DNA of 43,193 bases. Source: a virus. Every line of letters begins with the position of its first letter. Position 1 is the stretch's first letter. The stretch is from IMG/VR virus record IMGVR_UViG_3300002223_000004, positions 1 to 43,193 of that record; one strand, 5' to 3'. The notes beneath the pieces are model-generated. The model saw only the letters and a list, made by a program, of their open reading frames with translations, searched no databases and had not been told where the DNA came from. This document shows, piece by piece, positions 7,976 through 43,193 of the stretch. Position numbers and translations under genes: made by a program.

Positions 7976-8749
7976 ATGTCTATTTTACCCCAAAAGAGCA
8001 ACAAACTTCAACAGCCACTTAGGTTAAAAGCAATTATTACCTCAGTTAGAAGCCGGACATACTTTTCTAAGTGTATGACTTGTGGTAAAAAATTCTCCTA
8101 TTTTCCAAGCAATCATACGGGCAAATATTGCTCAAAACAGTGTTGCTATAAATCATCGGAGTGGAAAATTAAACAGAGACTTGCAAAAATTGGCAGAAGA
8201 CATTCTTTAAAAACACGATTGAAAATGAGTTTGGCTAAAAAAGGAAGAATGTTTTCAAATGAACACAAAAAGAATTTATCTTTATCGCAGAAAGGAACAC
8301 AAAGATTAACAATAAGAGGAAAAAATCATTGGAATTGGAAAGACGGAAAAACCGAAAAACTTAGAGGGACTAGAAGAGGGAGAAAATTTAGAGTATGGAG
8401 AACTGGTGTTTTATTGCGAGACAATTATGCTTGTATTTTTTGTGGAAGTAAAAAAAATATTTGTGTAGACCACATTGTTCCATTTGCCTCGATCTTATAT
8501 GAAGCAAATATATTAAAAACAGATGGCGCCTTATATAGTATTAACAATGGTAGAACTCTTTGTAAAAAATGTCATTTAGCAACGCCGACTTATAATTCAA
8601 AACTAGAAAATCAAACAGAATATAAATACATGTTTTTATTAGAAAAACTATGGAAACAAACTAAAAGTAATGATATAGAATTTGAAACTTTTTATCGCCA
8701 GCAAACCGAGAGGTTTATTGATATTATAAAGGAGAAATTACATGAATGA
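7976..8749 (+). CDS. HNH homing endonuclease with NUMOD3-like repeats
   Basis: A 257-aa protein. It has an N-terminal zinc-binding segment (CMTCGKKF, CSKQCC), then NUMOD3-like basic helices (residues about 70-105), then a C-terminal HNH nuclease (CIFCGS, VDHIVPF, NNGRTLCKKCH). This is a DNA-binding array followed by a nuclease, as in intron-encoded and free-standing homing endonucleases. It overlaps the methyltransferase gene by 8 nt, and the ribosome site of the methyltransferase (AAGGAG) lies inside its 3' end. Its own promoter is at 7929-7957. Confidence 0.87.
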   Translation: MSILPQKSNKLQQPLRLKAIITSVRSRTYFSKCMTCGKKFSYFPSNHTGKYCSKQCCYKSSEWKIKQRLAKIGRRHSLKTRLKMSLAKKGRMFSNEHKKNLSLSQKGTQRLTIRGKNHWNWKDGKTEKLRGTRRGRKFRVWRTGVLLRDNYACIFCGSKKNICVDHIVPFASILYEANILKTDGALYSINNGRTLCKKCHLATPTYNSKLENQTEYKYMFLLEKLWKQTKSNDIEFETFYRQQTERFIDIIKEKLHE

Positions 8750-9722
8750 ACTTCAGGTCATAGATGTTTCCAAGGATATTCTTGTAAGCGGATTTGTATT
8801 ACATAAGTATGGAATTGAAGCCAGTGGCGAACCAACTTTTGAACAATGGTTAGAATGTGGAGACTTTGTTAAAAAGGTTAATAGTGCTAACCACTTTTGG
8901 ATAGGTGATTGGATAAACTATGGTGAACACAAGTGGGGGGAAATCTATTCTCAAGCGTTAGATGAAACCGATTTTGAATATCAAACATTAAGAAATGATA
9001 AGTGGGTAGCAAACGAGATACCTTTGTCTTGGCGCCAAGACAATTTAAGATATAGCCACGCATTGATAATTGCATCTTTGCCACAAAAAGAAAAGGAATA
9101 TTGGTGTAACAAACTAAAAGATGAAAAACTTACCGTAGATGAATTAAAAGAGCAAATAAAAGAAAAAAGAAAGAAAGAATTACCAGAACCTAAAACTCCA
9201 GTAGGTAAATATCAAACAATTATAATTGATCCCCCATGGCCGGTTGAATATATGCACCTAAAAATGCGACCTCACCAAGTTTTAATGGAGTACCCAACAA
9301 TGACGGTAGAAGAAATTAAGAATTATAAAGTTGTTAAAGATATTGCGGACGATAATTGTAATTTGTTTATATGGACTACGCATAAATTTTTACCAGATAC
9401 TTTCGAGATATTAAAAGAATGGGGTTTTGACTATCATGTTTGTTTGACTTGGGACAAAACTAATGGCCGTTCATTATTTGGGTTTAACCGCAGAACAGAA
9501 TTTTGTTTATATGCACATAAAGGAAAGATAACGGTCAATCAAAGGGGAAAATTTATAGATACTATATTTGTAGAAAAATTAAGAGAACATTCCAGAAAGC
9601 CGGATATCTTTTATCAGATAATTAAAAATAATACACCAGAGCCGAGAATCGATGTTTTTAGTAGAGAAAAAAGAGACGGCTTTGATCAGTGGGGAAACGA
9701 GGAGGACAAATTTAATGGGTAA
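8742..9722 (+). CDS. MT-A70-type DNA adenine methyltransferase
   Basis: A 326-aa protein. Residues about 150-310 form an MT-A70-like Rossmann methyltransferase with the catalytic DPPW motif at residues 163-166 and a typical LFIWTTHKFLP strand-loop. These enzymes transfer a methyl group from S-adenosylmethionine to N6 of adenine. The N-terminal domain (1-135, with WIGDWINYGEHKWG and YQTLRNDKWVA) is the DNA-binding-like domain often fused to phage and plasmid MT-A70 enzymes. A likely role is protecting phage DNA from host restriction. The next gene overlaps by 8 nt. Confidence 0.85.
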   Translation: MNELQVIDVSKDILVSGFVLHKYGIEASGEPTFEQWLECGDFVKKVNSANHFWIGDWINYGEHKWGEIYSQALDETDFEYQTLRNDKWVANEIPLSWRQDNLRYSHALIIASLPQKEKEYWCNKLKDEKLTVDELKEQIKEKRKKELPEPKTPVGKYQTIIIDPPWPVEYMHLKMRPHQVLMEYPTMTVEEIKNYKVVKDIADDNCNLFIWTTHKFLPDTFEILKEWGFDYHVCLTWDKTNGRSLFGFNRRTEFCLYAHKGKITVNQRGKFIDTIFVEKLREHSRKPDIFYQIIKNNTPEPRIDVFSREKRDGFDQWGNEEDKFNG

Positions 9723-15968: not shown

Positions 15969-16231
15969 ATATTTGTTTCGATACTGATGAGTGTTTGGTT
16001 GATGGCGGCAAACCAATACCGGCGAATGTTGAACTTTTAAAATTATTATCCAAAACACACAAAGTGTTTATATGGTCGGGAAATGGTTTTGTCCACGCTT
16101 TTGATGTCGCAAAAAAACTTTACTTATTAGAAGTAATTAGTGGTGTATTGAATAAATATTCGACATTTGTCCCAGAGATAGCGTTTGACAACCAAGAAAT
16201 AGATTTAGGCAAAGTAAACATAAAGCTATGA
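15965..16231 (+). CDS. Small HAD-like phosphatase (88 aa)
   Basis: The N-terminus ICFDTDECLVDGG is a HAD motif I (DxD nucleophile and acid). FIWSGNG fits motif II, and FDNQEIDLGK near the C-terminus fits the acidic motif IV region. At 88 aa it lacks a cap domain. In heptose pathways a HAD phosphatase (GmhB) removes the 7-phosphate after the kinase step. This protein is much smaller than GmhB but sits exactly between gmhA and the kinase, so that role is plausible. It overlaps the kinase gene as ATGA. Confidence 0.6.
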   Translation: MNICFDTDECLVDGGKPIPANVELLKLLSKTHKVFIWSGNGFVHAFDVAKKLYLLEVISGVLNKYSTFVPEIAFDNQEIDLGKVNIKL

Positions 16232-17145
16232 AATATTTGTGTGAGGCTCCAGTCAGAATTAGTTTATTTGGATCGGGAAGTGATGTTGGAGAATACGCAT
16301 CTAAATATGGCGGTGTTTGTATAAATATGGCGATAAATATAAGGCAAAGGTTTATTTTAGGAGATGATGAAAAAGTAGATTTTGGTTATTTAGAGAATAC
16401 CAATCCTAAATTTTATGAGGCATTTTTTAAAGAGATTTATAGACCAAACTACTTTTTACAAGAGTTTGATGGATTTATACATAGCGGTTTAGGCACATCA
16501 GCATCAGCCGCGGTTTGTTTGGTGGCCGGACTATCTAAATTAAAAGGAGAAAAACTAATAAGGTACGAAATAGCTGAGAAGGCATGGGATATAGAGGTCA
16601 ATAAGTTAAATTTATTCGGAGGTAAGCAGGATCAATTTTGTGCGACATTTGGCGGGTTTAATTTAATGAAATTCAATGATAGGGTTGAGATACAAAGTAT
16701 TCATAGAGAAGTGGCAGAAAAAGTCACAGAGAATTTATTATTGTTTGATACAAGGATAAGACGCAAAAACCCCAAACTTCAGGAGAATCTAAAAACAATA
16801 TCTAGTGGGCAAAAACAAGCACTTGATATAATTAAGAACCTAGCAAATGATGCTTACCACAGAATTTATAAAGGCGATATAAAAGGATTAGGCAAATTAT
16901 TAGACGATACATGGAGATACAAAAAGCAAAGCAACAATGTGACCACGCCGGAAATTGACACAATCTATTACAAAGCAAGAGATTTAGGTGCTTATGGGGG
17001 TAAATTGTGCGGTTCAGGAGGTGGAGGTTACATGGTATTTATAGTTCCTATGGAAAAACAAGAATACTTTAAAAACCAAATAGGTCTTGAATGGGTAGAT
17101 CATGGTGGTATAGATTGGAATGGAGCAACAACACGATTTATATGA
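16228..17145 (+). CDS. hddA: Heptose-7-phosphate 1-kinase (HddA-like GHMP kinase)
   Basis: A 305-aa GHMP kinase. It has an N-terminal substrate segment (APVRISLFGSGSDV), the phosphate-binding loop GLGTSASAAV (around residue 88) and the C-terminal GGKLCGSGGGGYM motif. The closest match by eye is HddA, which phosphorylates D-glycero-D-manno-heptose-7-phosphate at C1 in GDP-heptose synthesis. Related kinases act on fucose or mevalonate, but the adjacent GmhA and nucleotidyltransferase favour heptose. Start and stop are both coupled by ATGA overlaps to the flanking genes. Confidence 0.8.
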   Translation: MKYLCEAPVRISLFGSGSDVGEYASKYGGVCINMAINIRQRFILGDDEKVDFGYLENTNPKFYEAFFKEIYRPNYFLQEFDGFIHSGLGTSASAAVCLVAGLSKLKGEKLIRYEIAEKAWDIEVNKLNLFGGKQDQFCATFGGFNLMKFNDRVEIQSIHREVAEKVTENLLLFDTRIRRKNPKLQENLKTISSGQKQALDIIKNLANDAYHRIYKGDIKGLGKLLDDTWRYKKQSNNVTTPEIDTIYYKARDLGAYGGKLCGSGGGGYMVFIVPMEKQEYFKNQIGLEWVDHGGIDWNGATTRFI

Positions 17146-25083: not shown

Positions 25084-25112
25084 TTTACTTTTGCAATGGC
25101 ATGACATACAAT
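25084..25112 (+). promoter_or_regulatory. Promoter of LAGLIDADG gene (leaderless)
   Basis: TTTACT (25084-25089), 17 nt, TACAAT (25107-25112), with the ATG at 25119 exactly 6 nt beyond the -10. This is the same geometry as the HNH-AP2 promoter at 7284 and close to that of the intein-nested gene at 38361. No Shine-Dalgarno sequence. Confidence 0.6.
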
Positions 25113-25118
25113 AAATGT

Positions 25119-25601
25119 ATGAAGCTAACAAAAGTAGAAAAAGCATATTTGGCAGGAATAATAGATGGTGAGGGATGTATTTCAATTCATAAACAGTTAG
25201 GTACGAGACAATTAAGAAAAAGGCATATTTTATATATTCATATTGCAAATACTGACGAAAAATTGATGCAATATCTTTTAAATAAAGTTGGAGGGAATGT
25301 ATCAAGAAGACAAGTAAAAAAGAAATGGAAGATAAGTAGAGTATGGAGAATTGGTGATAATAAAGCAAAAGAGTTATTAAAACAAGTTTATCCATATTTA
25401 ATTTTAAAGAGAAAACAAGCCAAAATTGGTTTTGAATTAAGAGAAACTTATAACAATAATGAAAGGTTTACGGAAAAAGATAATCATGCCAAATTTGGTT
25501 ATCTTAGGACACAAATATTGAAAGATGAAATCTATGAACAAAGAGACAAATTGTTTAAACAGATGAAAAAATTAAACAAAAAGGGCGCTGGACATGGCTA
25601 G
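25119..25601 (+). CDS. LAGLIDADG homing endonuclease, free-standing
   Basis: About 160 aa, with one LAGLIDADG motif (YLAGIIDGEGCI near residue 10), so it should act as a homodimer. The C-terminal YPYLILKRKQAKIGFEL helix is shared with the nested endonuclease at 38398 (LPYLVIKKERLKLVIKW), and both begin their core with LTK...YLAG. They are paralogs. It is inserted between portal-region genes. The ATG at 25119 is preferred, but an in-frame ATG at 25101 lies inside the promoter. Confidence 0.88.
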   Translation: MKLTKVEKAYLAGIIDGEGCISIHKQLGTRQLRKRHILYIHIANTDEKLMQYLLNKVGGNVSRRQVKKKWKISRVWRIGDNKAKELLKQVYPYLILKRKQAKIGFELRETYNNNERFTEKDNHAKFGYLRTQILKDEIYEQRDKLFKQMKKLNKKGAGHG

Positions 25602-30358: not shown

Positions 30359-31615
30359 ATGCCAATGTTATTAAGTAACGCATCAAGCGCCTTAAAGGAG
30401 ATACTATTACCTTTTATCCAGAATAACTTTCCTAAGCAAACCATTTTATTGGACACGCTTAAAAGGAATTCTAATATAAACTACATTAACGATGAGTTTG
30501 TAGCTTCACTCTGGACATCACGTCACGGGGGAGTTTCAAACTTAGCAGATGACGGTAATAACGTTCTATCTTCTTCAGGTAGGCGTTTGACGAGAGGCAC
30601 AGTGCCTGTTGAGAGTGTGACAGGTGCGTTCGATATTTCTAAACTAACTATCGATGCGACCAAAACATCTAAGGGAGCTGTTGCTGACATGCTTGCTGCA
30701 CAGGGTACTACCCTAGCAAGCGATTTTGGTAGACATTTGAATAGACAGTTTTACGGAGACGGAGTCGGTGTTGTTTCTCAGGTGAGAACAACCGGAGGTT
30801 CCGTTGGAGCTGGTACTGCAGCACTTGAACAACCGGATTCCAATTTGGATGACGGACGTTCAATCGACTGGTATGGAACTATTAACGGAGATGTTTCTCC
30901 TACTAAATATATCCATCAAGATGCCATTTTGGGTATCGGAACCGGTGGAGCTGATTTAGGTACTGTTTCTTCAGTTACCGGAACTTCTGTTGTTATGACA
31001 GGAGGTCCCGCAATTGTCGCAAGTGATTCTGTTTATTTGATGGATGGTTCAGGTGAAGGTGCGGGTACGTCCGAATTTTTAGGAATGAGGGCTGCTTTGT
31101 CATCTACAACTGGAACTTCCACTTATGCAGGTGTTGCCAGAAATACTACAGGTTGGGCTCCGCAATTCGGGTCAAGCTCTGAGGCTTTGACTCTTTCCAG
31201 AATGGAAGCTGCTTATATAAGCGCAAGAGAGTTCTCCGCAATGGAGGATAAGTTTGCAATTTTTGTAAACAAAACTCTTTATCAGAAATACGGAGATATC
31301 CTGACCGCCATGAGGCGTGAGGTCAATAGAACCGAACTCACTGGTGGCTGGACTGGAATTGACTTCGCCGCAGGAGCAGGAAAAGTCGCGGTATTTCTTG
31401 ATTACGACGTCCCCGATGGGGAAGTGTTAGTCGTAAACTTGAATAGCTGGACAATCTGCGAGGTTGAACCTATTAACTGGATGGAAGATCCCAATAGTGG
31501 AGCACTTCTAAGACTGCAAAATACTATTCAATACCAAGCTGTTTTGGTTTGGTTTGCGAATCTATTTTGTTTAGCACCAGCAAGCAACGCACGTGAGACC
31601 AGGAAGTCTGATTAA
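30359..31615 (+). CDS. Major capsid protein (HK97 fold, probable)
   Basis: A 418-aa protein following the scaffold. It has an N-terminal helical arm, an acidic E-loop-like part (SRHGGVSNLADDGNNVLSSS), a long domain with a Gly/Thr-rich insertion (residues about 180-280), a spine-helix-like segment (SRMEAAYISAREFSAMEDKF) and a late ALLRLQNTIQYQAVLVWFANLFC strand region typical of HK97-type capsid C-termini. No transmembrane or enzyme motif. The frame ends in ARETRKSD, which looks abrupt. A +1 frame continues with protein-like sequence (see 31593). Confidence 0.8.
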   Translation: MPMLLSNASSALKEILLPFIQNNFPKQTILLDTLKRNSNINYINDEFVASLWTSRHGGVSNLADDGNNVLSSSGRRLTRGTVPVESVTGAFDISKLTIDATKTSKGAVADMLAAQGTTLASDFGRHLNRQFYGDGVGVVSQVRTTGGSVGAGTAALEQPDSNLDDGRSIDWYGTINGDVSPTKYIHQDAILGIGTGGADLGTVSSVTGTSVVMTGGPAIVASDSVYLMDGSGEGAGTSEFLGMRAALSSTTGTSTYAGVARNTTGWAPQFGSSSEALTLSRMEAAYISAREFSAMEDKFAIFVNKTLYQKYGDILTAMRREVNRTELTGGWTGIDFAAGAGKVAVFLDYDVPDGEVLVVNLNSWTICEVEPINWMEDPNSGALLRLQNTIQYQAVLVWFANLFCLAPASNARETRKSD

Positions 31616-33224: not shown

Positions 33225-33293
33225 TTGCAATAGTTTTTCTGTTGTTGCTATAATGGTGGCAGGCAGGTTGGCAAGTGGGCTTGTCCTGCCACC
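33225..33293 (+). promoter_or_regulatory. Extended -10 promoter followed by 9-bp hairpin
   Basis: TTGCAA (33225-33230), 18 nt, TGC-TATAAT (33246-33254; perfect -10 with extended TGN). Immediately after it, GGTGGCAGG (33255-33263) pairs perfectly with CCTGCCACC (33285-33293). The ATG at 33302 follows with no Shine-Dalgarno sequence. Unlike modules A-D there is no T tract. The hairpin probably stabilises or regulates the mRNA of the chaperonin/glycosyltransferase operon. Confidence 0.7.
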
Positions 33294-33301
33294 ACACTTG
33301 C

Positions 33302-33973
33302 ATGGATGATAAGAAACTAGAATTTCACGGCATCTTCTTTGTGCCTCCTATAACCGAAAATTTTATCGGACATCAATGTTCAGAGATTTGGCGAGACAAT
33401 GTCTATGCACCTTTCTTACAAGGTAAAAGTGGATTAACCATAGTAGATTTGGGTAGTAATATAGGACTTACTACTTATTACTTTTCACAATTTGCCGATA
33501 AAGTTTATTCAGTAGAACCCTCAAAAGAACATTTCCAAACTCTCACAAGAATGCTCACGTTTAATAACATTCAAAATGTAGTCCCGATAAATAAGGCAAT
33601 TTACATTAAAAGTGGAAAATTATCGCTTTACCACGATGTTAAAAACAAAACCATGTATAGTTTGCACTCCGCAATAGGGAGTGCTAATAAGTTTATAAGC
33701 GAGGAGGTTGAAGCTATTACGCTCGGCGAGCTGTTTAAAGAACACGATATTAAGCACGTTGATTTTATGAAGTGCGATATCGAAGGGAGCGAGACGGAAT
33801 TGTTATCTTCTACTAGTTTTATGGATGTAGCGGACAAAATAAGCACAATTGTAGTAGAAAGACACGACTGGGCAGGCAGACAACCCCAACAATTAGTAGA
33901 TGCGCTTAAAAACGCAGGGTTTAACGTAGGCCAAGTTTCAACAAGCGCGGATTTGTTAGTAGGTACTAAATGA
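33302..33973 (+). CDS. FkbM-family methyltransferase 1
   Basis: The ATG at 33302 is preferred to an upstream in-frame TTG inside the hairpin. The 223-aa product has the SAM-binding motif VDLGSNIGLTTYYFS (around residue 50), YSVEPSKEHF (motif II acidic residue) and VDFMKCDIEGSE, the FkbM hallmark. FkbM enzymes O-methylate sugars or glycolipid/peptide hydroxyls. It is first in a six-gene chain joined by ATGA overlaps, leading to chaperonins and glycosyltransferases, so sugar methylation is likely. Confidence 0.82.
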   Translation: MDDKKLEFHGIFFVPPITENFIGHQCSEIWRDNVYAPFLQGKSGLTIVDLGSNIGLTTYYFSQFADKVYSVEPSKEHFQTLTRMLTFNNIQNVVPINKAIYIKSGKLSLYHDVKNKTMYSLHSAIGSANKFISEEVEAITLGELFKEHDIKHVDFMKCDIEGSETELLSSTSFMDVADKISTIVVERHDWAGRQPQQLVDALKNAGFNVGQVSTSADLLVGTK

Positions 33974-34722
33974 AAAAAAGAAAGATTAAACACGAACTTT
34001 TAAACGGCGGTAAAGAAACCGAGATTCACTATCCGATTAAAGATGATGAGTTTGACAACCAAGTTGAAGAGATATTTGTTAATGGGAATTACGGCTTCCA
34101 TTTACCGAAAGATGGTGTTTATATGGATTTAGGAGCCAATGTAGGAATGGCTACACTTTACTTTGCCAACTTCGCTAAAAAGATTTACGCGATTGAGCCA
34201 AACCCCGACATATATGAGGCATTAGTAGAAAACACGAAACACTTAAAAAATGTAGAAACATTCAATGTAGCTTGGGCAAACGGAACGGGCAAAGAGTTTC
34301 TTTACGGAACTAAGTTGGGTGATTTACCTCAAACTTTTTGGGATAGAGGTTCGAATAAAGGAACAAGCGCAATAGTCGTTGATTGCATAACACCGAAGGA
34401 CTTTTGGAAGGATAATAAAATAGGCCATATTGACTTATTGAAAGTAGATATCGAGGATGCGGAATATATTATATTTCCAAGTGATAACTTTGGTGAGATA
34501 ACAAAAGATATAGACGCAATAATAGGTGAGGCACACTTTGGGGTTAATGGGGGCTTTCCTGAGATAATACCGGAACTTCTTAAACCGTGGGGCTACAAAA
34601 CTACTTTTCCTAAACTCAAAAAACACAACTATAGAAGATTTTTTAAGTACACGGATTTACTTAAAGGCATGACAAAAGAATACCTACATGATAGCGATAC
34701 TATATTTTTAAGTAAGAAATGA
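33970..34722 (+). CDS. FkbM-family methyltransferase 2
   Basis: A 250-aa protein. MDLGANVGMATLYFANFAKKI is the SAM-binding loop, YAIEPNPDIYEAL motif II, and IDLLKVDIEDAEYIIF the FkbM acidic motif. It is a paralog of the preceding gene with moderate similarity, so the pair may act successively on one sugar or on two positions. Both ends are ATGA overlaps (with methyltransferase 1 and groES). Confidence 0.82.
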   Translation: MKKRKIKHELLNGGKETEIHYPIKDDEFDNQVEEIFVNGNYGFHLPKDGVYMDLGANVGMATLYFANFAKKIYAIEPNPDIYEALVENTKHLKNVETFNVAWANGTGKEFLYGTKLGDLPQTFWDRGSNKGTSAIVVDCITPKDFWKDNKIGHIDLLKVDIEDAEYIIFPSDNFGEITKDIDAIIGEAHFGVNGGFPEIIPELLKPWGYKTTFPKLKKHNYRRFFKYTDLLKGMTKEYLHDSDTIFLSKK

Positions 34723-34973
34723 TAAATCCGTTTCCGAAATATTTACTAGTACTTCCGATTAAGGAAGAACAAATGACTTCGGGGGGCATTGCATTGCCTG
34801 AAATCTCGCAAGACAAACCGATGAAAGGCGAAGTTGTCGCTATCGGTGAAAAAATAAAAAATGTAAAAGTTGGGGATATTATTGTGCATAAAAAGTGGAT
34901 AAATGAAACTTATAAACATGAAGGCACAGAATATATATTTGTCAGGAAAGAAGATTTGTTAGCAAAGTTATGA
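34719..34973 (+). CDS. groES: GroES-like co-chaperonin
   Basis: An 84-aa protein, slightly shorter than bacterial GroES (about 95). It starts NPFPKYLLVLPIKEEQ, has the mobile loop with TSGGIALPE (the IAL tripeptide that binds GroEL), then GEVVAIGE and VKVGDIIVHKKW, and ends VRKEDLLAKL. All conserved GroES strands are present. It is coupled by ATGA overlaps to the FkbM gene before and groEL after. Phage co-chaperonins usually help fold the capsid protein. Confidence 0.92.
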   Translation: MINPFPKYLLVLPIKEEQMTSGGIALPEISQDKPMKGEVVAIGEKIKNVKVGDIIVHKKWINETYKHEGTEYIFVRKEDLLAKL

Positions 34974-36550
34974 GCAGATTTCCTATAAAAATTGTCTCTG
35001 GAACTAACGCTAGAAAGAAATTGCTGGAAGGAATAAATATTTTGGCCGATGCAGTTTCTAGCACATTAGGCCCTCGTGGTCGAAATGTGGCTATTAATCA
35101 ATCAAACGGCGCACCAAGAATAATTCATGACGGAGTCGGTGTAGCTTTACGAATTGACTTGTTTAATGAGTTTGAAGATATGGGCGCACAACTCTTAAAA
35201 GAGGCGGCTATCAAAACAAACGATATCGCAGGAGATGGTACTACAACTGCAACCATACTTGCACAATCGCTAATCAGTAAAGGTTTGGAAGATATTACGG
35301 CAGGCAAAAACCCCATGACCTTAAAGGCCGAGCTTGAAGAAGCTACTAAGTTACTTTTAAAAGAATTAAAGAAATTATCACGTCCTGTTGATAACGACAA
35401 GGAGGTTGAGCGTGTAGCTACAATTGCTTCAGCAAACCCCAAACTTGGTAAGATGGTGGCTAGCGCGATTAAAAAGGTAGGTAAAGACGGAGTGATTGAC
35501 GTTGAACGGGGTAATAAGGCCGAAACTGAAATTGAGTATAAACAAGGCATGGAGATAGACAGGGGCTACAAATCGCCTTATTTTGTAACTAATAAACAGA
35601 CAGTTGAGGCGGTAGTTGATGATCCTTACATTCTTCTTACAAATAAAAAGATAAATCACAGCCAACCGGAGTTGGTGCCTTTTATGGAGAAGTTTTTAAA
35701 GGTAAGCAAGAACTTAGTAATTATCGGTGAGGTTGAGGAAGAGGCACTAGCCACTTTAGTTGTTAATAGACTAAAAGGAATATTGAATGTAGTAGCAATT
35801 CAACCACCAGCGTTTGGCGACAGGCAAATAGATGAGTTGGAGGACTTGGCTATATTAACGGGCGGTACTGTAATAAATGTGGATTCAGGTAGAAAACTTG
35901 ATAGTGTTGAAATTGAAGAATTGGGCCGTGCTGATAGCGTTAAATCTGATAGGGATAAAACTACAATTCTAGGTGGTAAAGGAAACTCTGCGCTAATTAA
36001 AGAATACACTGATAAGTTAAAAGAACAGATTAAGAGAGGTAACACCGAATATGATACAGGAATTAAAAAGCAACGATTGGCTAAAATGATGGGTGGGGTT
36101 GCAATAATTAAAGTAGGTGGGATTACCGAAGTTGAGCTGGATGACAAACGGGAACGCGTTATAGACGCTGTTAGAAGCGCGCAGGCATCAATTGAGGAGG
36201 GAATAGTAGCAGGAGGGCAGGTAGCTTATTTGGTGCTCTCACAAGGCGACTGGTGGCCTGATACTTTGGGTGCTCAAATACTGCGTGAGGCTATCAAGAA
36301 GCCATTTAAAATCTTAATGGAGAATACGGGTTATGACTACGCCGAGGCATTAGGTAAAATAACACCGATTGAGTACCCCAAAGCGATAGATGTAATGGAT
36401 GGAGAGGTTAAGGATATGATTGAGGCAGGAGTAATTGATTCAGCATTAGTAGCTAAAAGTGCGGTAGAAAACGCGGTAAGTGTGGCGGGGATGGCTTGGA
36501 CGCTTTCTTGTATGATTAGTGAACCCTATCAGAATAAGGAAACAAAATGA
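34970..36550 (+). CDS. groEL: GroEL-like chaperonin
   Basis: A 526-aa protein of near full GroEL length. Conserved parts are STLGPRGRNV (33-40), the ATP-binding GDGTTT (88-93), and the intermediate-domain catalytic Asp in IDAVRSAQASIEEGIVAGG. The apical domain is present (residues about 190-370). The C-terminal GGM tail is absent; it ends in QNKETK. It should form a folding chamber with the phage GroES. Phage-encoded GroEL is uncommon and a complete GroES-GroEL pair more so. It overlaps the neighbours by ATGA on both sides. Confidence 0.94.
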   Translation: MSRFPIKIVSGTNARKKLLEGINILADAVSSTLGPRGRNVAINQSNGAPRIIHDGVGVALRIDLFNEFEDMGAQLLKEAAIKTNDIAGDGTTTATILAQSLISKGLEDITAGKNPMTLKAELEEATKLLLKELKKLSRPVDNDKEVERVATIASANPKLGKMVASAIKKVGKDGVIDVERGNKAETEIEYKQGMEIDRGYKSPYFVTNKQTVEAVVDDPYILLTNKKINHSQPELVPFMEKFLKVSKNLVIIGEVEEEALATLVVNRLKGILNVVAIQPPAFGDRQIDELEDLAILTGGTVINVDSGRKLDSVEIEELGRADSVKSDRDKTTILGGKGNSALIKEYTDKLKEQIKRGNTEYDTGIKKQRLAKMMGGVAIIKVGGITEVELDDKRERVIDAVRSAQASIEEGIVAGGQVAYLVLSQGDWWPDTLGAQILREAIKKPFKILMENTGYDYAEALGKITPIEYPKAIDVMDGEVKDMIEAGVIDSALVAKSAVENAVSVAGMAWTLSCMISEPYQNKETK

Positions 36551-37296
36551 AAAGAAAACCCGTAGTTTGCTTTACCATTGCCGATCACAATAATGTTAAG
36601 TGGGCGTTAATGCTTGAAAAGAGCCTGAGAAAATTCCACACTAAACAGGAGCTTCCCTTAGAGATAATAGCGGGGCACATTCTTGACAATGCTCTAAAAC
36701 AAGATAGTCAATTTTTCTATCGAGCGAAACCAGTTGTTGCCAGTCAACTAATTGAAAATTACGAAGTTGTAATCGGAGCAGATGCCGATAGTATTATCAC
36801 CGCGCCGATTAACGAAGCGTGGGAGGGGGATTTTGACGTTAAACTGGTTTTAAATAGTAATCCACGAGAACACAAAGCATATCCTGTTGGCGTGTGGGAC
36901 ATTGACCCCATACACGAATACGTTAATTGTGGCTTTGTGTCTATGCGCTCAAAAGAGTTCGTTGACCATTGGCACAGGCTTTGCTATTCACCAAGATTTG
37001 AAAGATATCCCATGCGGGAGCAGGATTTTTTAAACATAATAGTTCACTATGGAAACTATAACTGTCAGTTATTAGAGAATACTGATCAGTTTTGGGGTTT
37101 AAGTTCAAAGGGGTATTGGGCTGATATCAAGTTAGACAAAGATAAATTAATTTTACCCGCTAATGATGAATGGAATAAAAACGATAGGATAATTCGCGTT
37201 ATCCATTGGGGTGGCGGCAACGATCCAAATAAAATGAATTTCAATACACGATTCCAGCCTGAAGTGGCTAAGTTTCTAAATGATTTAGTTAAATGA
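36547..37296 (+). CDS. GT-A fold glycosyltransferase
   Basis: A 249-aa protein. The VVIGADADSIITAP segment (around residue 78) holds the DxD motif that binds the nucleotide-sugar metal. NCGFVSMRSKEFVDHW, REQDFLN and the late VIHWGGGNDPNKMNF are typical of GT8/GT-A enzymes, where the last His contributes to metal binding. There is no signal or TM segment, so it acts in the cytoplasm. It is ATGA-coupled to groEL and to the intein-containing glycosyltransferase. The likely donor is the NDP-heptose made by the 15.4-19.8 kb genes, by inference. Confidence 0.78.
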   Translation: MKRKPVVCFTIADHNNVKWALMLEKSLRKFHTKQELPLEIIAGHILDNALKQDSQFFYRAKPVVASQLIENYEVVIGADADSIITAPINEAWEGDFDVKLVLNSNPREHKAYPVGVWDIDPIHEYVNCGFVSMRSKEFVDHWHRLCYSPRFERYPMREQDFLNIIVHYGNYNCQLLENTDQFWGLSSKGYWADIKLDKDKLILPANDEWNKNDRIIRVIHWGGGNDPNKMNFNTRFQPEVAKFLNDLVK

Positions 37297-39395
37297 AAAG
37301 ACGTGACTTAAAAATAATATGGCACAGTAATAGCGTAAATGTTAATAGTGGTTACGCAACCTTTAGTAGGGATTTATTATTTAGGTTACTCAGGGATGGC
37401 TGGAATGTGGCAAATATAGGCTTTTTCGGAGTGGAAGGATATCACACATTTATGAATGGTGAAGATCTTATTGACGATAGATTTAAAGGATTAAAATTAA
37501 AGGTTTATCCTAAAATGAACGACCCTTACGGATCGGATGCTTTAGTTAGCCATTCAGCAGATTTCGGCGCTCATGTTGCTTTTGCGATGTTGGATATCTG
37601 GACGATTCAACCGCAAGCACTTCAAGAATTAAATAACAATGGAACTAAATTCATACCATACTTACCGATTGACCAAGAACCTATTTACACACCGATATTA
37701 AGTAATTTAAACCATGCTTATAAGATAATTACTTTCGCGAAATACGGCCAGAAACAACTTCAGAATGCGGGATATACTTCAACTTTAATCTTAGAAGGAG
37801 TGGATACTGAGATATTTAAACCAATGGATAAAGCAGAATGTAGAAAAGAGCTTGACTTACCGCAAGAGAATTTCTTTTTTGGAATGATAGGTGCTAATAA
37901 AGAAAATCCGCCAAGAAAGGGTTATCAAGAGGCTATTGAGGCTTTTAAAATGTTTTTAGACAAACATCCAGAGGCGAGAATGTTTTTCCACACTCAACAA
38001 GTTGCGCCAGGAGGCTTTCCCATACTTGAGTTTGGTAAGTATCTTAATATCCACGACAAGATGTACTTTTTAAATCCTTATAAGAGTTCTTTTGCGTCAG
38101 ACTCACACAAGATAGCGAGAGAAATAAACACTTTTGATATTCTTCTACACCCTTCACAAACCGAAGGCTTTGGACTTTTACCGGTTGAAGCTCAGTCGTG
38201 TTTTCCTGAAGAGATTAAAGTTTCTATGGATAATATATTATCTGGACAAGTAAGAAAATTTACTGGTGAGTTGGTTGAAATAAAAACCAGCAGAGGAACC
38301 ATCAGGTCAACACCAGAACATCCGTTCTATACAGATAATGGGTGGGTTAAAGCGGGAGAATTGACCAAAGAGTATCACCTATTGTATAATAACGAACATG
38401 ACAAGAGGGGCGTTTACAAAGGAAGAATCAAGGAGGTTTTTGAGTCTCTATCGAGAACATACACTAGAGGAAGTGGCAAGAATCATGAACAGGACATACA
38501 GTTCAGTTCTATGGCACAAAAAAAAGGCGGGCTATCGAAAAACAATGAAAGAGAGATTGAAAATGAAAAAAGTAAAGCTAACAAAGATAGATTTGTCGTA
38601 TTTAGCGGGGATGATAGACGGAGACGGCCAAGTCACAATAAGAAAAATGAGTGGTGGGAAATGGAAACCCTTAATATCAATAACAAACGATTCAGAAACA
38701 TTGATGAATTGGTTAAGACAAAAAATACCAACGAAATCTTCCTATATAGAAAAAAGGGGGTTGAGGGAAAATGGTCAAATGGGTTATTTGTTTCATATAA
38801 CAGGGATTTCTTATCTCAATTTTTTCAAGGATATTTTGCCTTATCTGGTGATAAAAAAAGAGAGATTGAAACTAGTAATCAAATGGACAGAAATGAGACT
38901 AAAACAAGGAAACAACGAACCAGCAAATTCAGAGAAATTTCTAACGATAGTGAAAACGATAAGGCATTTGAACTCGTCAAAATTGAGAGCATACAAAGAA
39001 GTACAGTAAAAAATCTGCTAGTTTATAATTTTACAACAAATAGCAATGTTTATCTGGCAAACGGGTATCTCGTTCATAATTGTGGAGTCCCGCCGATTGT
39101 AAATAATTGCCACTCACAACCTGAGATGATAATTGATGGCAAAACGGGTGAGATTTGCGAAATAGGTAAAGGTTGGTTTAGAAATATGAGCGCTTATGTT
39201 TATCCCGCTGACGTTAATTCTTTATACGACAAAATGGAAACTTTATACGCTAAAGTAAAAGACGAAAAAACAAGAAAGCAGATCGCCAAAGACGCCAGAC
39301 AAAATGTACTAGATAATTACAATATCGAAAAAGTGGCCGATAAATTCATTAGTTTCTTGGAAACTTTACAAGACGAGATTCTTCCTATAAAATAA
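37293..39395 (+). CDS. GT-B (GT4-like) glycosyltransferase interrupted by intein
   Basis: A 700-residue precursor. The exteins (residues 1-302 and 597-700) join to a 406-aa GT4-type enzyme: N-terminal acceptor domain, FFGMIGANKENPPRKGY start of the donor domain, and HPSQTEGFGLLPVEAQS|CGVPPIVNN, the EX7E-type donor-binding motif. The intein (residues 303-596) sits inside this active-site motif, directly before the conserved Cys-Gly. The enzyme should be inactive until splicing. It is last in the ATGA-coupled operon. The gene remains one open frame over 2.1 kb. Confidence 0.88.
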   Translation: MKRRDLKIIWHSNSVNVNSGYATFSRDLLFRLLRDGWNVANIGFFGVEGYHTFMNGEDLIDDRFKGLKLKVYPKMNDPYGSDALVSHSADFGAHVAFAMLDIWTIQPQALQELNNNGTKFIPYLPIDQEPIYTPILSNLNHAYKIITFAKYGQKQLQNAGYTSTLILEGVDTEIFKPMDKAECRKELDLPQENFFFGMIGANKENPPRKGYQEAIEAFKMFLDKHPEARMFFHTQQVAPGGFPILEFGKYLNIHDKMYFLNPYKSSFASDSHKIAREINTFDILLHPSQTEGFGLLPVEAQSCFPEEIKVSMDNILSGQVRKFTGELVEIKTSRGTIRSTPEHPFYTDNGWVKAGELTKEYHLLYNNEHDKRGVYKGRIKEVFESLSRTYTRGSGKNHEQDIQFSSMAQKKGGLSKNNEREIENEKSKANKDRFVVFSGDDRRRRPSHNKKNEWWEMETLNINNKRFRNIDELVKTKNTNEIFLYRKKGVEGKWSNGLFVSYNRDFLSQFFQGYFALSGDKKREIETSNQMDRNETKTRKQRTSKFREISNDSENDKAFELVKIESIQRSTVKNLLVYNFTTNSNVYLANGYLVHNCGVPPIVNNCHSQPEMIIDGKTGEICEIGKGWFRNMSAYVYPADVNSLYDKMETLYAKVKDEKTRKQIAKDARQNVLDNYNIEKVADKFISFLETLQDEILPIK
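38361..38390 (+). promoter_or_regulatory. Promoter inside intein for nested endonuclease
   Basis: TTGACC (38361-38366), 18 nt, perfect TATAAT (38385-38390). The ATG of the nested endonuclease (38398) is 7 nt past the -10, predicting a leaderless mRNA. These bases also code the end of intein block B and the adjoining linker (ELTKEYHLLYNN). The arrangement matches the promoters of the other endonucleases at 7284 and 25084. Confidence 0.75.
38398..39009 (+). CDS. LAGLIDADG endonuclease nested out of frame in intein
   Basis: A 203-aa protein in the +1 frame relative to the intein. Residues about 1-48 form a Myb/HTH-like DNA-binding region (TKEESRRFLSLYREHTLEE). The core begins LTKIDLSYLAGMIDGDGQV (around residue 60) with one LAGLIDADG motif, followed by NDSETLMNWLRQKI and ILPYLVIKKERLKL. 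It resembles the free-standing endonuclease at 25119. It has no Shine-Dalgarno sequence but its own promoter. Its stop lies just before intein block F, so it occupies exactly the slot of a conventional in-frame endonuclease domain. Confidence 0.88.
   Translation: MTRGAFTKEESRRFLSLYREHTLEEVARIMNRTYSSVLWHKKKAGYRKTMKERLKMKKVKLTKIDLSYLAGMIDGDGQVTIRKMSGGKWKPLISITNDSETLMNWLRQKIPTKSSYIEKRGLRENGQMGYLFHITGISYLNFFKDILPYLVIKKERLKLVIKWTEMRLKQGNNEPANSEKFLTIVKTIRHLNSSKLRAYKEVQ
39365..39393 (+). promoter_or_regulatory. Module C promoter, TTTACA-N17-TAAAAT
   Basis: TTTACA (39365-39370), 17 nt, TAAAAT (39388-39393), inside the end of the glycosyltransferase gene. The +1 hairpin starts 6 nt later. It is upstream of the tail/fibre block. 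Confidence 0.55.
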
Positions 39396-39399
39396 ATTA

Positions 39400-39458
39400 C
39401 TACATAAGATGTAGGCAAGAGAGGTAATAAGCACTCCGAAAGGGGTGCTATTTTTTTT
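39400..39458 (+). terminator. Module C: +1 hairpin, linker and intrinsic terminator
   Basis: Hairpin CTACAT-AAG-ATGTAG (39400-39414), linker GCAAGAGAGGTAATA, then AGCACTCC-GAAA-GGGGTGCT (39430-39449; 8 bp with a GNRA tetraloop) and T8 (39451-39458). The ribosome site GGAGGTGAG of the next gene follows directly. Confidence 0.78.
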
Positions 39459-41525: not shown

Positions 41526-42035
41526 ATGTCGTTTAAAAAAGGAAAACTAAATATAAATTGGAAGGGCGGTAAGCCAAATTGTTTAGATTGTGGAAAAAAA
41601 TTAGCAAGTAGACAATCTAAAAGATGTAATTCTTGTGGACAAAAAGGTAAGAACAATTCTGGTAAGGGGAAAAATAGTCATAAGTGGAAGGGTGAAAATG
41701 CTAGATATGAAACAAAACACCAATGGCTATACAACAATTTTGGACAACCAAACTTTTGTGAAGCATGTGGAGCAGATAATGCGTCGATATTTGATTGGGC
41801 TAATATAAGTGGGGAATATAAAAGAGATAAAAAAGACTGGATAAGATTATGTAGGATGTGTCACTGGAAGTATGACAATAAAACAAAGTTATATTCTTAT
41901 ATGGGAATACAAGATGGTTTGACTAACTGGTCAAAATATTTCGGTATTAAAAGAAGCACACTATATATGAGAGTAGAAAAATATAATTGGGACATGGGAA
42001 AAGCATTACATACATCAGTGGAAGGGGGGAATTAA
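41526..42035 (+). CDS. HNH homing endonuclease (WAN-SG-YKRD family)
   Basis: A 169-aa protein. An N-terminal zinc segment (CLDCGKKL, CNSCGQ) leads to a basic linker, then the HNH core CEACGA, WANISGEYKRD, CRMCH, and a C-terminal NWSKYFGIKRSTLYMRVEKYNWD helix pair. It is the closest paralog of the gene at 4613 and related to 5988. It lies between the fibre and adaptor genes. The next gene's ribosome site (AAGGGGGG) is inside its 3' end. Confidence 0.87.
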   Translation: MSFKKGKLNINWKGGKPNCLDCGKKLASRQSKRCNSCGQKGKNNSGKGKNSHKWKGENARYETKHQWLYNNFGQPNFCEACGADNASIFDWANISGEYKRDKKDWIRLCRMCHWKYDNKTKLYSYMGIQDGLTNWSKYFGIKRSTLYMRVEKYNWDMGKALHTSVEGGN

Positions 42036-42036
42036 T

Positions 42037-43161
42037 TTGTCACTCATTAGAAGCAGAAATTTATTACACTTAAATATTCCTTACACCCGCCTTCGGGAAA
42101 CTGAAGCGGCGGGCACTACTTCATTGCGAGTACAAAACACCGAAGGATTAACTACAGGTTGGGGTATTCAAATAGGCGGTGTCGGACACGAACAAACTGA
42201 GGTTGTAATAGGTACTAACTCAAATGGAACGACAATAACTTCACCCGCAACTACTTACGAACACCCTGAAGATACTCCTATCTACTTTATTAAATACAAT
42301 CAAGTAGTTTTTGAAAGAAGCACGGCAGGTACTACGGGCACGGCAACCCCAATGACTAATGGCACAGTTACTTATCAACCTAATGATTTCTTTACAGTAT
42401 TCGATGACACAAGTGGATCTTCTACTTACGGATATAGGACTTATTTCAGAAATTCGGTTTTAGCAGTCAATTCAACTGAAAGTGATTGGACTACTTTTGC
42501 GGGACATGACTTTTATTCACTTGGAAAAATGCGCGACAGAATGAAAAGAAAACTTTGGAACTCAACTTACTTAGAAGATCAGGACATAGACGATTGGATA
42601 AACGAATGTAAAGACAAAATGGCCAATAAAGTAACCTCGGCCAATGAGGATTACACAATGGGTACGGTTAATGTGGGTTTCGGAACTGATGGACTTGGAA
42701 CTATCACACAAGCGGACTTTACTTTTCCAAGACGTGTTTGGATAACTTATAACGGATCGGATAAATTTGTATCGACTAAATTCGGAATAAATGATATTAC
42801 GCCTAATCAAATCTATTCAAGTTCGCATCCATATCATGCTTGGATTGATAACAATGTATTTGTAGTTGAACCCGAAGGTCCGGGAACTGCTGAGATCGTT
42901 TATCAAAGATTTGGTACAACAATGGTAAACGATACGGATATTTTACCAGTGCCAATGAGAAGCTATACGGATATATTTGTTGACTATTGTAAAAGTCAGG
43001 CTAAAAGCAAGGACGGCAAAGAAGAAGAAGCACAGATTATTTTACAAAGAGTTGGAACAGCGGTTGATGATTTCGCACTTAATATTGCGCCAAGAGATCG
43101 CACGGGCGTAACACTTGTCGATTTGGTCGAGCCTGTACAGGGCGATTCATTCGGGTTTTAA
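42037..43161 (+). CDS. Head-tail adaptor (connector) protein
   Basis: A 374-aa protein with a TTG start after AAGGGGGG. The N-terminal 150 residues are a beta-rich immunoglobulin-like insertion. From about residue 165 a helical adaptor core follows (LGKMRDRMKRKLWNSTYLED, then DDWINECKDKMANKVTS), and a beta/helical end (SYTDIFVDYCKSQAKSKDG) completes a gp6/gp11-type connector of podoviruses that bridges portal and nozzle. The adjacent nozzle-like gene at 42 supports this. The stop is at 43161, inside the terminal repeat. Confidence 0.7.
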   Translation: MSLIRSRNLLHLNIPYTRLRETEAAGTTSLRVQNTEGLTTGWGIQIGGVGHEQTEVVIGTNSNGTTITSPATTYEHPEDTPIYFIKYNQVVFERSTAGTTGTATPMTNGTVTYQPNDFFTVFDDTSGSSTYGYRTYFRNSVLAVNSTESDWTTFAGHDFYSLGKMRDRMKRKLWNSTYLEDQDIDDWINECKDKMANKVTSANEDYTMGTVNVGFGTDGLGTITQADFTFPRRVWITYNGSDKFVSTKFGINDITPNQIYSSSHPYHAWIDNNVFVVEPEGPGTAEIVYQRFGTTMVNDTDILPVPMRSYTDIFVDYCKSQAKSKDGKEEEAQIILQRVGTAVDDFALNIAPRDRTGVTLVDLVEPVQGDSFGF

Positions 43162-43193
43162 TATGCCAATTTTACGCCAATTCAATATACCAG
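43122..43193. repeat. Terminal redundancy, right copy
   Basis: Exact copy of bases 1-72. Joining the ends gives one uninterrupted adaptor-to-nozzle gene pair. Confidence 0.95.

Follow-up and report, generated by a model that had tools for sequence, protein, structure and literature searches.

A predicted homing intein with a separate, out-of-frame endonuclease gene in the last gene of a phage chaperonin and glycosyltransferase operon

Introduction

How an endonuclease gene comes to lie, in a reading frame of its own, inside the last gene of an operon that joins a phage chaperonin pair to sugar-transfer genes is the question raised by the IMG/VR virus record IMGVR_UViG_3300002223_000004. The window, by which we mean the whole stretch of 43,193 nucleotides (nt) that was analyzed, carries at 33302-39395 six consecutive genes for two FkbM-family methyltransferases, GroES, GroEL, a GT-A and a GT-B glycosyltransferase. 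These genes and their coordinates had been given in an original prediction made from the sequence alone, and they stand, as do the ATGA overlaps reported at all five junctions. The last gene had been taken for a plain GT-B gene; its frame proves to be split by an intein that holds a nested, out-of-frame gene, and this had been missed. We consider it very likely that the last gene of a conserved chaperonin/transfer operon has been invaded by a homing intein, and that this intein's endonuclease is encoded separately, by a gene in the +1 frame.

The Intein in the GT-B Gene

The features concerned are the following (lengths in amino acids, aa).

37293-39395, + strand, GT-B glycosyltransferase precursor, 700 aa, split by the intein (Pfam Glycos_transf_1, 5.8e-11)
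38199-39080, + strand, intein, 294 aa (Pfam Intein_splicing PF14890, 38.3 bits, cut-off 35.8)
about 38199-38394 and 38966-39080, + strand, splicing parts of the intein (motifs, boundaries)
38361-38390, + strand, promoter-like site TTGACC-18-TATAAT within the intein (11 of 12 matches)
38398-39009, + strand, nested homing-endonuclease gene, +1 frame, 203 aa (PHROG 5046, 5.8e-16)
about 38575-38991, + strand, I-CreI/I-MsoI-like LAGLIDADG domain, residues 60-198 of the nested protein (PDB phmmer)

By its motifs and by comparison with alleles that lack it, the insert is assigned to the class 1 HINT inteins and is predicted to splice. Inteins of this class were recognized by Cys or Ser at position 1, a TxxH block B, a terminal His-Asn pair and Cys, Ser or Thr at +1; the window has Cys1 at 38199, TPEH in block B, a terminal VHN at 39080 and Cys at +1, and the class 1 pattern was invariant across 36 inteins. 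Matches of the intein among PDB sequences (phmmer) were inteins, and the top Foldseek matches were likewise all inteins with a probability near 1, but with an E-value of 0.008 over a partial alignment. Removal of the insert in silico brings EGFGLLPVEAQS next to CGVPPIV, where EAQACG stands in homologues, and yields a GT-B of 406 aa that gives a single alignment to the GT-B of Microcystis phage Mae-JY09 over its whole length, across the junction (2.6e-55). GT-B homologues without an intein are found in the IMG/VR loci L254 and L255, in Mae-JY09 and in Pontimonas phage phiPsal1, and the uninterrupted junctions (site marked by a slash) read EAQS/AGV in L255, EAQA/SGK in L254 and EAQA/CGC in Mae-JY09. 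In L255 and L254 the insert is missing at the exact site, and the next residue is Ala or Ser, not Cys.

Other kinds of intervening sequence were considered and rejected. A group I or group II intron is contradicted by the lack of any Rfam match in the window and by a host frame that stays open through the insert. In split inteins ("fractured genes") a free-standing endonuclease gene lies between two splicing halves. Here, in contrast, host gene and intein are unbroken, GT-B being one 700-aa reading frame, and splicing would occur in cis. The in-frame translation of the intein carries no endonuclease detectable with Pfam, which separates it from a canonical endonuclease-bearing intein. The MuF-like gene of Gordonia phage Vivi2 (L050) holds an intein-like domain whose first block is shortened as in the window intein, and intein sequence seems to be part of some PHROGs, 15127 (head protein) among them.

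The Nested Endonuclease Gene

The protein read in the +1 frame matches an engineered I-CreI-type enzyme (phmmer, 1.2e-12), I-MsoI (1e-10) and wild-type I-CreI (about 1e-6) over 135-140 residues, and its LAGLIDADG motif is intact as LAGMIDGDG. I-CreI and I-MsoI are known as intron-encoded enzymes; the nested protein differs from them in what looks like a helix-turn-helix (HTH) fused at its N-terminus and in the position of its gene within an intein. A single-sequence AlphaFold model of the protein had a predicted local distance difference test score (pLDDT) of 52 and was not used.

Two frames are open across this region. In 20,000 randomizations of the synonymous codons of the nested protein, 18.7 stops were expected in the host frame and the minimum was 7, against none observed, while the third frame holds 36. 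Freestanding relatives of the endonuclease, taken as a control, have a median of 10 stops per 100 codons in the host-equivalent frame. Codon usage favors both frames about equally in the nested region, unlike the flanks, and the bases for the C-terminal residues 180-198 of the nested protein, which match I-CreI, also encode conserved splicing sequence in the host frame. These observations bear on the possibility of an ordinary intein with an in-frame endonuclease, in which two compensating assembly indels mimic an out-of-frame gene. Frameshift errors do occur in metagenome contigs, and in-frame LAGLIDADG and DUF559 inteins are common, but error does not explain the stop-free host frame, the use of the C-terminal region by both products also speaks against it, and the same layout is met in dozens of independent assemblies and several cultured phages. 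A second contig, possibly from the same population, has the identical sequence. We give this explanation almost no credence.

Only four sites as good as the promoter-like site in the intein occur in the genome, both strands included, and it ends just 7 nt before the nested ATG, so that the message may be leaderless or nearly so. A programmed ribosomal frameshift, for example at a run of eight A (A8) seen by eye in the overlap near 38517, would instead fuse the splicing domain to the endonuclease. Such a product would lose the conserved HTH part, which lies before the A8 run, and would be without the C-terminal splicing half; moreover, the nested gene has an ATG of its own with a strong promoter-like site just upstream, its counterparts in Vibrio and Pseudomonas phages have GAGG 6-9 nt before the ATG, and nested genes are found in both the +1 and the +2 frame. 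Fusion by frameshifting is on these grounds very unlikely.

The nested gene has a counterpart in L171, where a GT-B gene carries an intein at the same site; the HTH-LAGLIDADG gene nested in it is homologous to that of the window (30% identity over 188 aa, 6e-22). The host-frame linkers of the window and L171 gave no significant BLAST match. Further out-of-frame nested LAGLIDADG genes lie in GT-B genes of L170 and L172 and in another protein family in L176 and L177, while candidates in L173-L175 and L180 were rejected as frames open for more than 100 codons by chance only. In L170, TGGTATAAT upstream of 2692 and a GGAG precede a double ATG of the nested gene, a second case of promoter and ribosome site within the splicing domain. 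Elsewhere in the window, a free-standing LAGLIDADG endonuclease gene (25101-25601; PHROG 5046, 2.5e-25) encodes a protein 30% identical to the nested one, and is possibly its source or a cousin.

Recurrence in Other Phages

A scan of IMG/VR with a HINT block-B pattern returned 41 loci, mostly with a long +1 ORF (open reading frame) inside the intein of a helicase gene. The hidden protein of these helicase inteins comprises zinc fingers and a DUF559 domain, which we take to be Vsr-like and of the PD-(D/E)XK type. A second, looser scan by splicing motif, biased by its pattern, gave 63 distinct complete inteins among the matches listed. Seventeen of these 63 have an out-of-frame nuclease, namely DUF559 in the +1 frame in 13 (11 by Pfam, two by alignment) and HNH_3 in the +2 frame in four; in-frame nucleases in the same set were LAGLIDADG_3 (11), DUF559 (5) and a few HNH, and out-of-frame and in-frame nucleases are thus of roughly equal frequency there. 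In total, 67 nested ORFs were collected; clustering at 50% identity gives 25 clusters, and the ORFs belong to five groups that show no detectable similarity to one another. Three nuclease superfamilies (LAGLIDADG, DUF559/Vsr-like and HNH) and both alternative frames are represented, and the host genes include SNF2/DEAD helicases, terminases, GT-B and radical-SAM proteins. From these counts it is likely, though less firmly held than the reading of the window itself, that dual-frame inteins are a major class of phage intein and that the endonuclease moved frame independently in at least three nuclease superfamilies.

Long ORFs also lie out of frame in the inteins of the radical-SAM genes of L056 and L122; stops in the host frame are avoided across them (P 0.0003), and they match no known nuclease family. 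They form two of the five groups and are counted among the 67 ORFs, not among the 17 of 63. Candidates in L065, L095, L112, L128 and L160 were left out for weak stop tests, lack of a nuclease domain or both, because chance open frames occur in high-GC (guanine-cytosine) contigs. A nested HNH match in Aeromonas phage AhSzw-1 was rejected as it does not lie under a host gene, and no relative in cellular organisms was found when genomes were scanned with one nested DUF559 protein.

The arrangement is also present in cultured phages. The DUF559 form occurs in Corynebacterium phage phi673, Vibrio phages CP-T1, 1.088.O and 104E43.1 and Pseudomonas phage MR14, in host genes annotated as helicase, nucleoside triphosphate hydrolase or hypothetical protein with the endonuclease unannotated, and the HNH form, in the +2 frame, occurs in a gene annotated as terminase in Acinetobacter phage Highwayman. 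GAGG stands 6-9 nt before an in-frame ATG of the nested gene in CP-T1, MR14, 1.088.O and 104E43.1; in CP-T1 and MR14 it is formed by Asp-Glu-Val codons of the splicing domain.

Selection and Mobility

Which frame is constrained can be read from substitutions between related inteins. Across 24 helicase inteins, 70% of substitutions in the splicing part fall at host codon position 3, whereas in the nested part 49% fall at host position 1, which is position 3 of the nested frame, and nested-frame protein identity exceeds host-frame identity in all 155 of 155 pairs. The clearest case is the pair of Vibrio phages 1.088.O and 1.027.O: of the 37 substitutions between them in the nested region, position 1 of the host codons takes 32 and position 3 takes none. 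These cause six amino-acid changes in the nested protein, against 25.5 expected from random placement of the substitutions (0 of 2000 trials as low), and 31 in the host-frame protein, for which 25.3 were expected. Of the eight changes beyond the nested gene, seven are at host position 3. In this pair, therefore, the nested frame is constrained, while the host frame over it is nearly free except for stops. For the class as a whole, stop avoidance, the number of independent genomes and this Vibrio selection rule out assembly error or frameshift.

Empty and occupied alleles exist side by side. At the helicase site of this pair, related Vibrio phages have no intein (1.285.O, which reads DE then Ala), a nested intein of 356 aa, or a mini-intein of 150 aa (K389, K459), and the exteins are 75-83% identical to the empty allele. 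The helicase gene of 1.024.O is likewise free of an insert. Empty alleles are without the +1 Cys in both the GT-B and the Vibrio helicase systems, and all occupied alleles have it, as expected if the Cys arrives with the element or is needed for splicing. Together with the family of the endonuclease, these alleles suggest homing. In Vibrio phage PS65A.1 (L336), one helicase gene holds two inteins. The first, in the P-loop, includes an endonuclease-like portion in frame; the second, at motif II, is a 150-aa mini-intein that occupies the site of the nested-endonuclease intein of relatives.

Comparison with Known Elements

The closest published precedent seems to be the ShiLan domain (Arsenault, Gosselin and Gogarten 2025, PMC11855218), a phage insertion with an open host frame and an out-of-frame HNH endonuclease. 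It resembles the present elements in a disjunct distribution suggesting homing, and it too has no obvious ribosome site. ShiLan itself is without intein motifs and is believed to be retained in the methylase, and the same paper treats inteins as carrying their endonuclease as a protein domain (PMC11855218). The elements described here are, in contrast, inteins with splicing domains, they employ LAGLIDADG and DUF559 as well as HNH, and they occupy many host genes. The window accordingly shares with ShiLan an out-of-frame endonuclease in a stop-free insertion, and differs by its splicing domain. With canonical inteins it shares the HINT motifs, insertion at a conserved site, the place of the endonuclease (compare PMC6801210) and the logic of homing, but here the endonuclease is a separate protein from another frame and the host frame codes only for a linker. 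The dual-frame arrangement seems to be common in phage inteins and to have been overlooked.

Several points weigh against the interpretation of the window as an intein with a working out-of-frame endonuclease gene. The LAGLIDADG_3 Pfam score is 20.7 bits, just below the cut-off of 22.5, and no clear Shine-Dalgarno sequence lies upstream of the ATG at 38398. The first block of the intein is shorter than usual, and its AlphaFold model has confident strands (pLDDT >90) only at residues 20-64 and about 257-294, with low values between. In the window's own case, selection on the nested gene is read only from stop avoidance and the distant L171 homologue. As for novelty, a preprint from the group of the ShiLan work reportedly deals with actinobacteriophage inteins of non-canonical architecture. 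In the open literature searched, no published intein endonuclease in another frame was found; that preprint (doi 10.1101/2025.01.02.630785) may overlap with the present findings, and priority is uncertain.

Part of this evidence would also suit a nested gene that is a dead remnant, with only the intein still active: no close pair is available for a selection test in the window phage, and the Pfam score falls short. Yet the frame is intact over the full I-CreI-like length, including the LAGMIDGDG motif, the L171 homologue has the same two domains at the same site, a near-consensus promoter precedes the window gene, and strong purifying selection acts on the sister element of Vibrio phages. A dead remnant is thus improbable, and we retain the interpretation as a homing intein with a separate endonuclease gene.

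The following mechanism is proposed. GT-B would be translated through the intein, and the HINT domain would excise itself, restoring the conserved donor-binding motif of the enzyme. The endonuclease would be made as a separate protein from the +1-frame gene, which occupies the usual position of the endonuclease domain and overlaps the last splicing block, the intein frame over it being stop-free and predicted to encode only a disordered linker. Expression would be independent, probably from the intein promoter in the window and from internal ribosome sites in the Vibrio and Pseudomonas relatives. Cleavage of an intein-less allele by the endonuclease, followed by repair, would copy intein and endonuclease together, and splicing would keep the host enzyme working. 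Because an essential reading frame runs through the nested gene, stops in the host frame would be purged; apart from this, the linker might drift.

The Operon and Its Relatives

Upstream of the GT-B gene the operon comprises the following features, its end being marked by the last.

33225-33254, + strand, operon promoter-like site TTGCAA-18-TATAAT, TG before the second hexamer (10 of 12 matches)
33302-33973, + strand, FkbM-family methyltransferase 1 (Pfam PF05050, 6.9e-14; PHROG 8156; homologue at the same place in L255 and L265)
33970-34722, + strand, FkbM-family methyltransferase 2 (Pfam PF05050, 5.4e-15; ATGA at 33970-33973)
34719-34973, + strand, groES co-chaperonin, 84 aa, short form (Pfam PF00166, Cpn10, 1.8e-18)
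34970-36550, + strand, groEL chaperonin, 526 aa (Pfam PF00118, Cpn60, 4.1e-53; PDB group I chaperonins to 7e-137)
36547-37296, + strand, GT-A glycosyltransferase, probably GT8-like with a DAD motif (weak; from homologues)
39430-39449, + strand, terminator-like hairpin at the operon end (from sequence)

Pfam confirms the predicted identity of the FkbM, groES and groEL genes, while the GT-A call is weak: the window copy has no Pfam match and a profile match to LgtC is poor (0.063), but homologues in L254 and L255 are 45-49% identical to it, and that of L254 matches Glyco_transf_8 at 6.8e-6. Alignment with PDB group I chaperonins shows the stretches GDGTTT, RGYxSPYF and ALATLVVN in GroEL, presumably the ATPase and apical residues, and GroES retains a TSGGI mobile-loop-like stretch; GroEL is without a C-terminal GGM tail. 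On their Cpn60 and Cpn10 domains and these kept residues, the pair is classified as a group I chaperonin.

All five operon junctions, from 33970 to 37296, are 4-nt ATGA overlaps, compared with 6 of 51 junctions in the rest of the genome (Fisher p = 1.2e-4). Five in a row exceed the genome background, although ATGA coupling as such is ordinary. The single strong promoter predicted for the operon is matched in part, since a promoter-like site does precede the first gene but the strongest site of the region is the one inside the intein. Location in the virion region is borne out, the operon following the major capsid gene (30359-31615; PHROG major head protein), whose product has no match among GenBank phages. 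The genome ends are identical over 72 base pairs (1-72 and 43122-43193), and their junction is spanned by IMGVR_UViG_3300025010_000649, another contig of this phage; the 43-kilobase (kb) genome is therefore complete and probably circularly closed, although classed as linear. Elsewhere it holds genes for a GHMP-family kinase (sugar-kinase type) and an MT-A70 methyltransferase at 16228-17145 and 8742-9722, of which the kinase may belong with the sugar genes, and, close to the genome end, a weak match to HNH endonuclease PHROGs (41526-42035).

The expected gene order holds in the parts available from three relatives. L255 (GroEL 55% identical) has major capsid protein, FkbM, FkbM, GroES, GroEL, GT-A and GT-B, where four of the junctions read ATGA and the genes at the fifth overlap by 8 nt; L265 (61%) has the capsid protein through GroEL and stops within groEL; L254 (57%) starts at groEL and continues with GT-A and GT-B. 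In L254 a short groEL-like ORF (100-348) ahead of the full groEL (640-2232) resembles a partial duplication of its start. The kept gene order speaks for a real functional module, and the operon is conserved as such within its lineage. IMG/VR scans with the single GT-B, GroEL and nested proteins returned only a contig of the same phage.

A full chaperonin pair in a phage had been called unusual; groEL by itself is not very unusual, since 259 GenBank phage records carry it. The coupling to sugar-transfer genes is kept in the three closest relatives but not around most other phage groEL genes: of 80 groEL loci kept from a wider IMG/VR scan, only L254, L255 and L265 have the tight cassette, and its neighbors are not present around groEL in Flavobacterium, Vibrio and Bacteroides phages or in cthkR962. 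In phage ctf1B273, groEL is flanked by two glycosyltransferase genes in the head-gene region. Since most other phage groEL genes are without such neighbors, the link between chaperonin and transferases is a lineage feature and no rule. Phages EL and AR9 also have a GroEL-family gene (PMC7185714, PMC9598537); the window phage differs in having GroES too, a 43-kb genome and a capsid-proximal cassette with methyl- and glycosyltransferases. Homologous GT-B genes likewise follow the capsid gene in phiPsal1 and Mae-JY09, with neither chaperonin nor intein there.

In relatives, too, the operon follows the capsid gene; a joint action of chaperonin and transferases on some component of the virion or surface is therefore probable. 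The original prediction went further, offering as one idea that a capsid or fiber protein is folded by the chaperonin and then receives sugar and methyl groups from the neighboring enzymes. The position directly behind the capsid gene and the kept gene order fit this idea, as do a GT-B and a methyltransferase gene after the capsid gene in phiPsal1 and a GT-B gene there in Mae-JY09, but phage groEL genes mostly lack transferase neighbors, and the chaperonin may instead serve the enzymes themselves or replace a host chaperonin. We regard the folding proposal as possible but somewhat doubtful.

Implications

Searches for inteins and the annotation of phage genomes take the endonuclease for an intein domain, and only a helicase, terminase, glycosyltransferase or hypothetical protein is listed as a result. 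Inteins counted as endonuclease-free may therefore carry one in another frame. If the proposed arrangement is correct, the nuclease would be expressed independently, and a host-frame stop that disrupted the nested gene would kill the host gene as well. The dual-frame design would open another path linking full inteins and mini-inteins. It would also supply a clear set of long genes that overlap on one strand, one of the two frames serving as a linker under nearly neutral evolution. The empty, nested and mini-intein alleles of cultured Vibrio phages make homing, expression and loss directly testable. The operon, for its part, with its conserved combination of chaperonin pair, methyltransferases and glycosyltransferases following the capsid gene, offers a defined module for asking why a small phage would need a chaperonin of its own.

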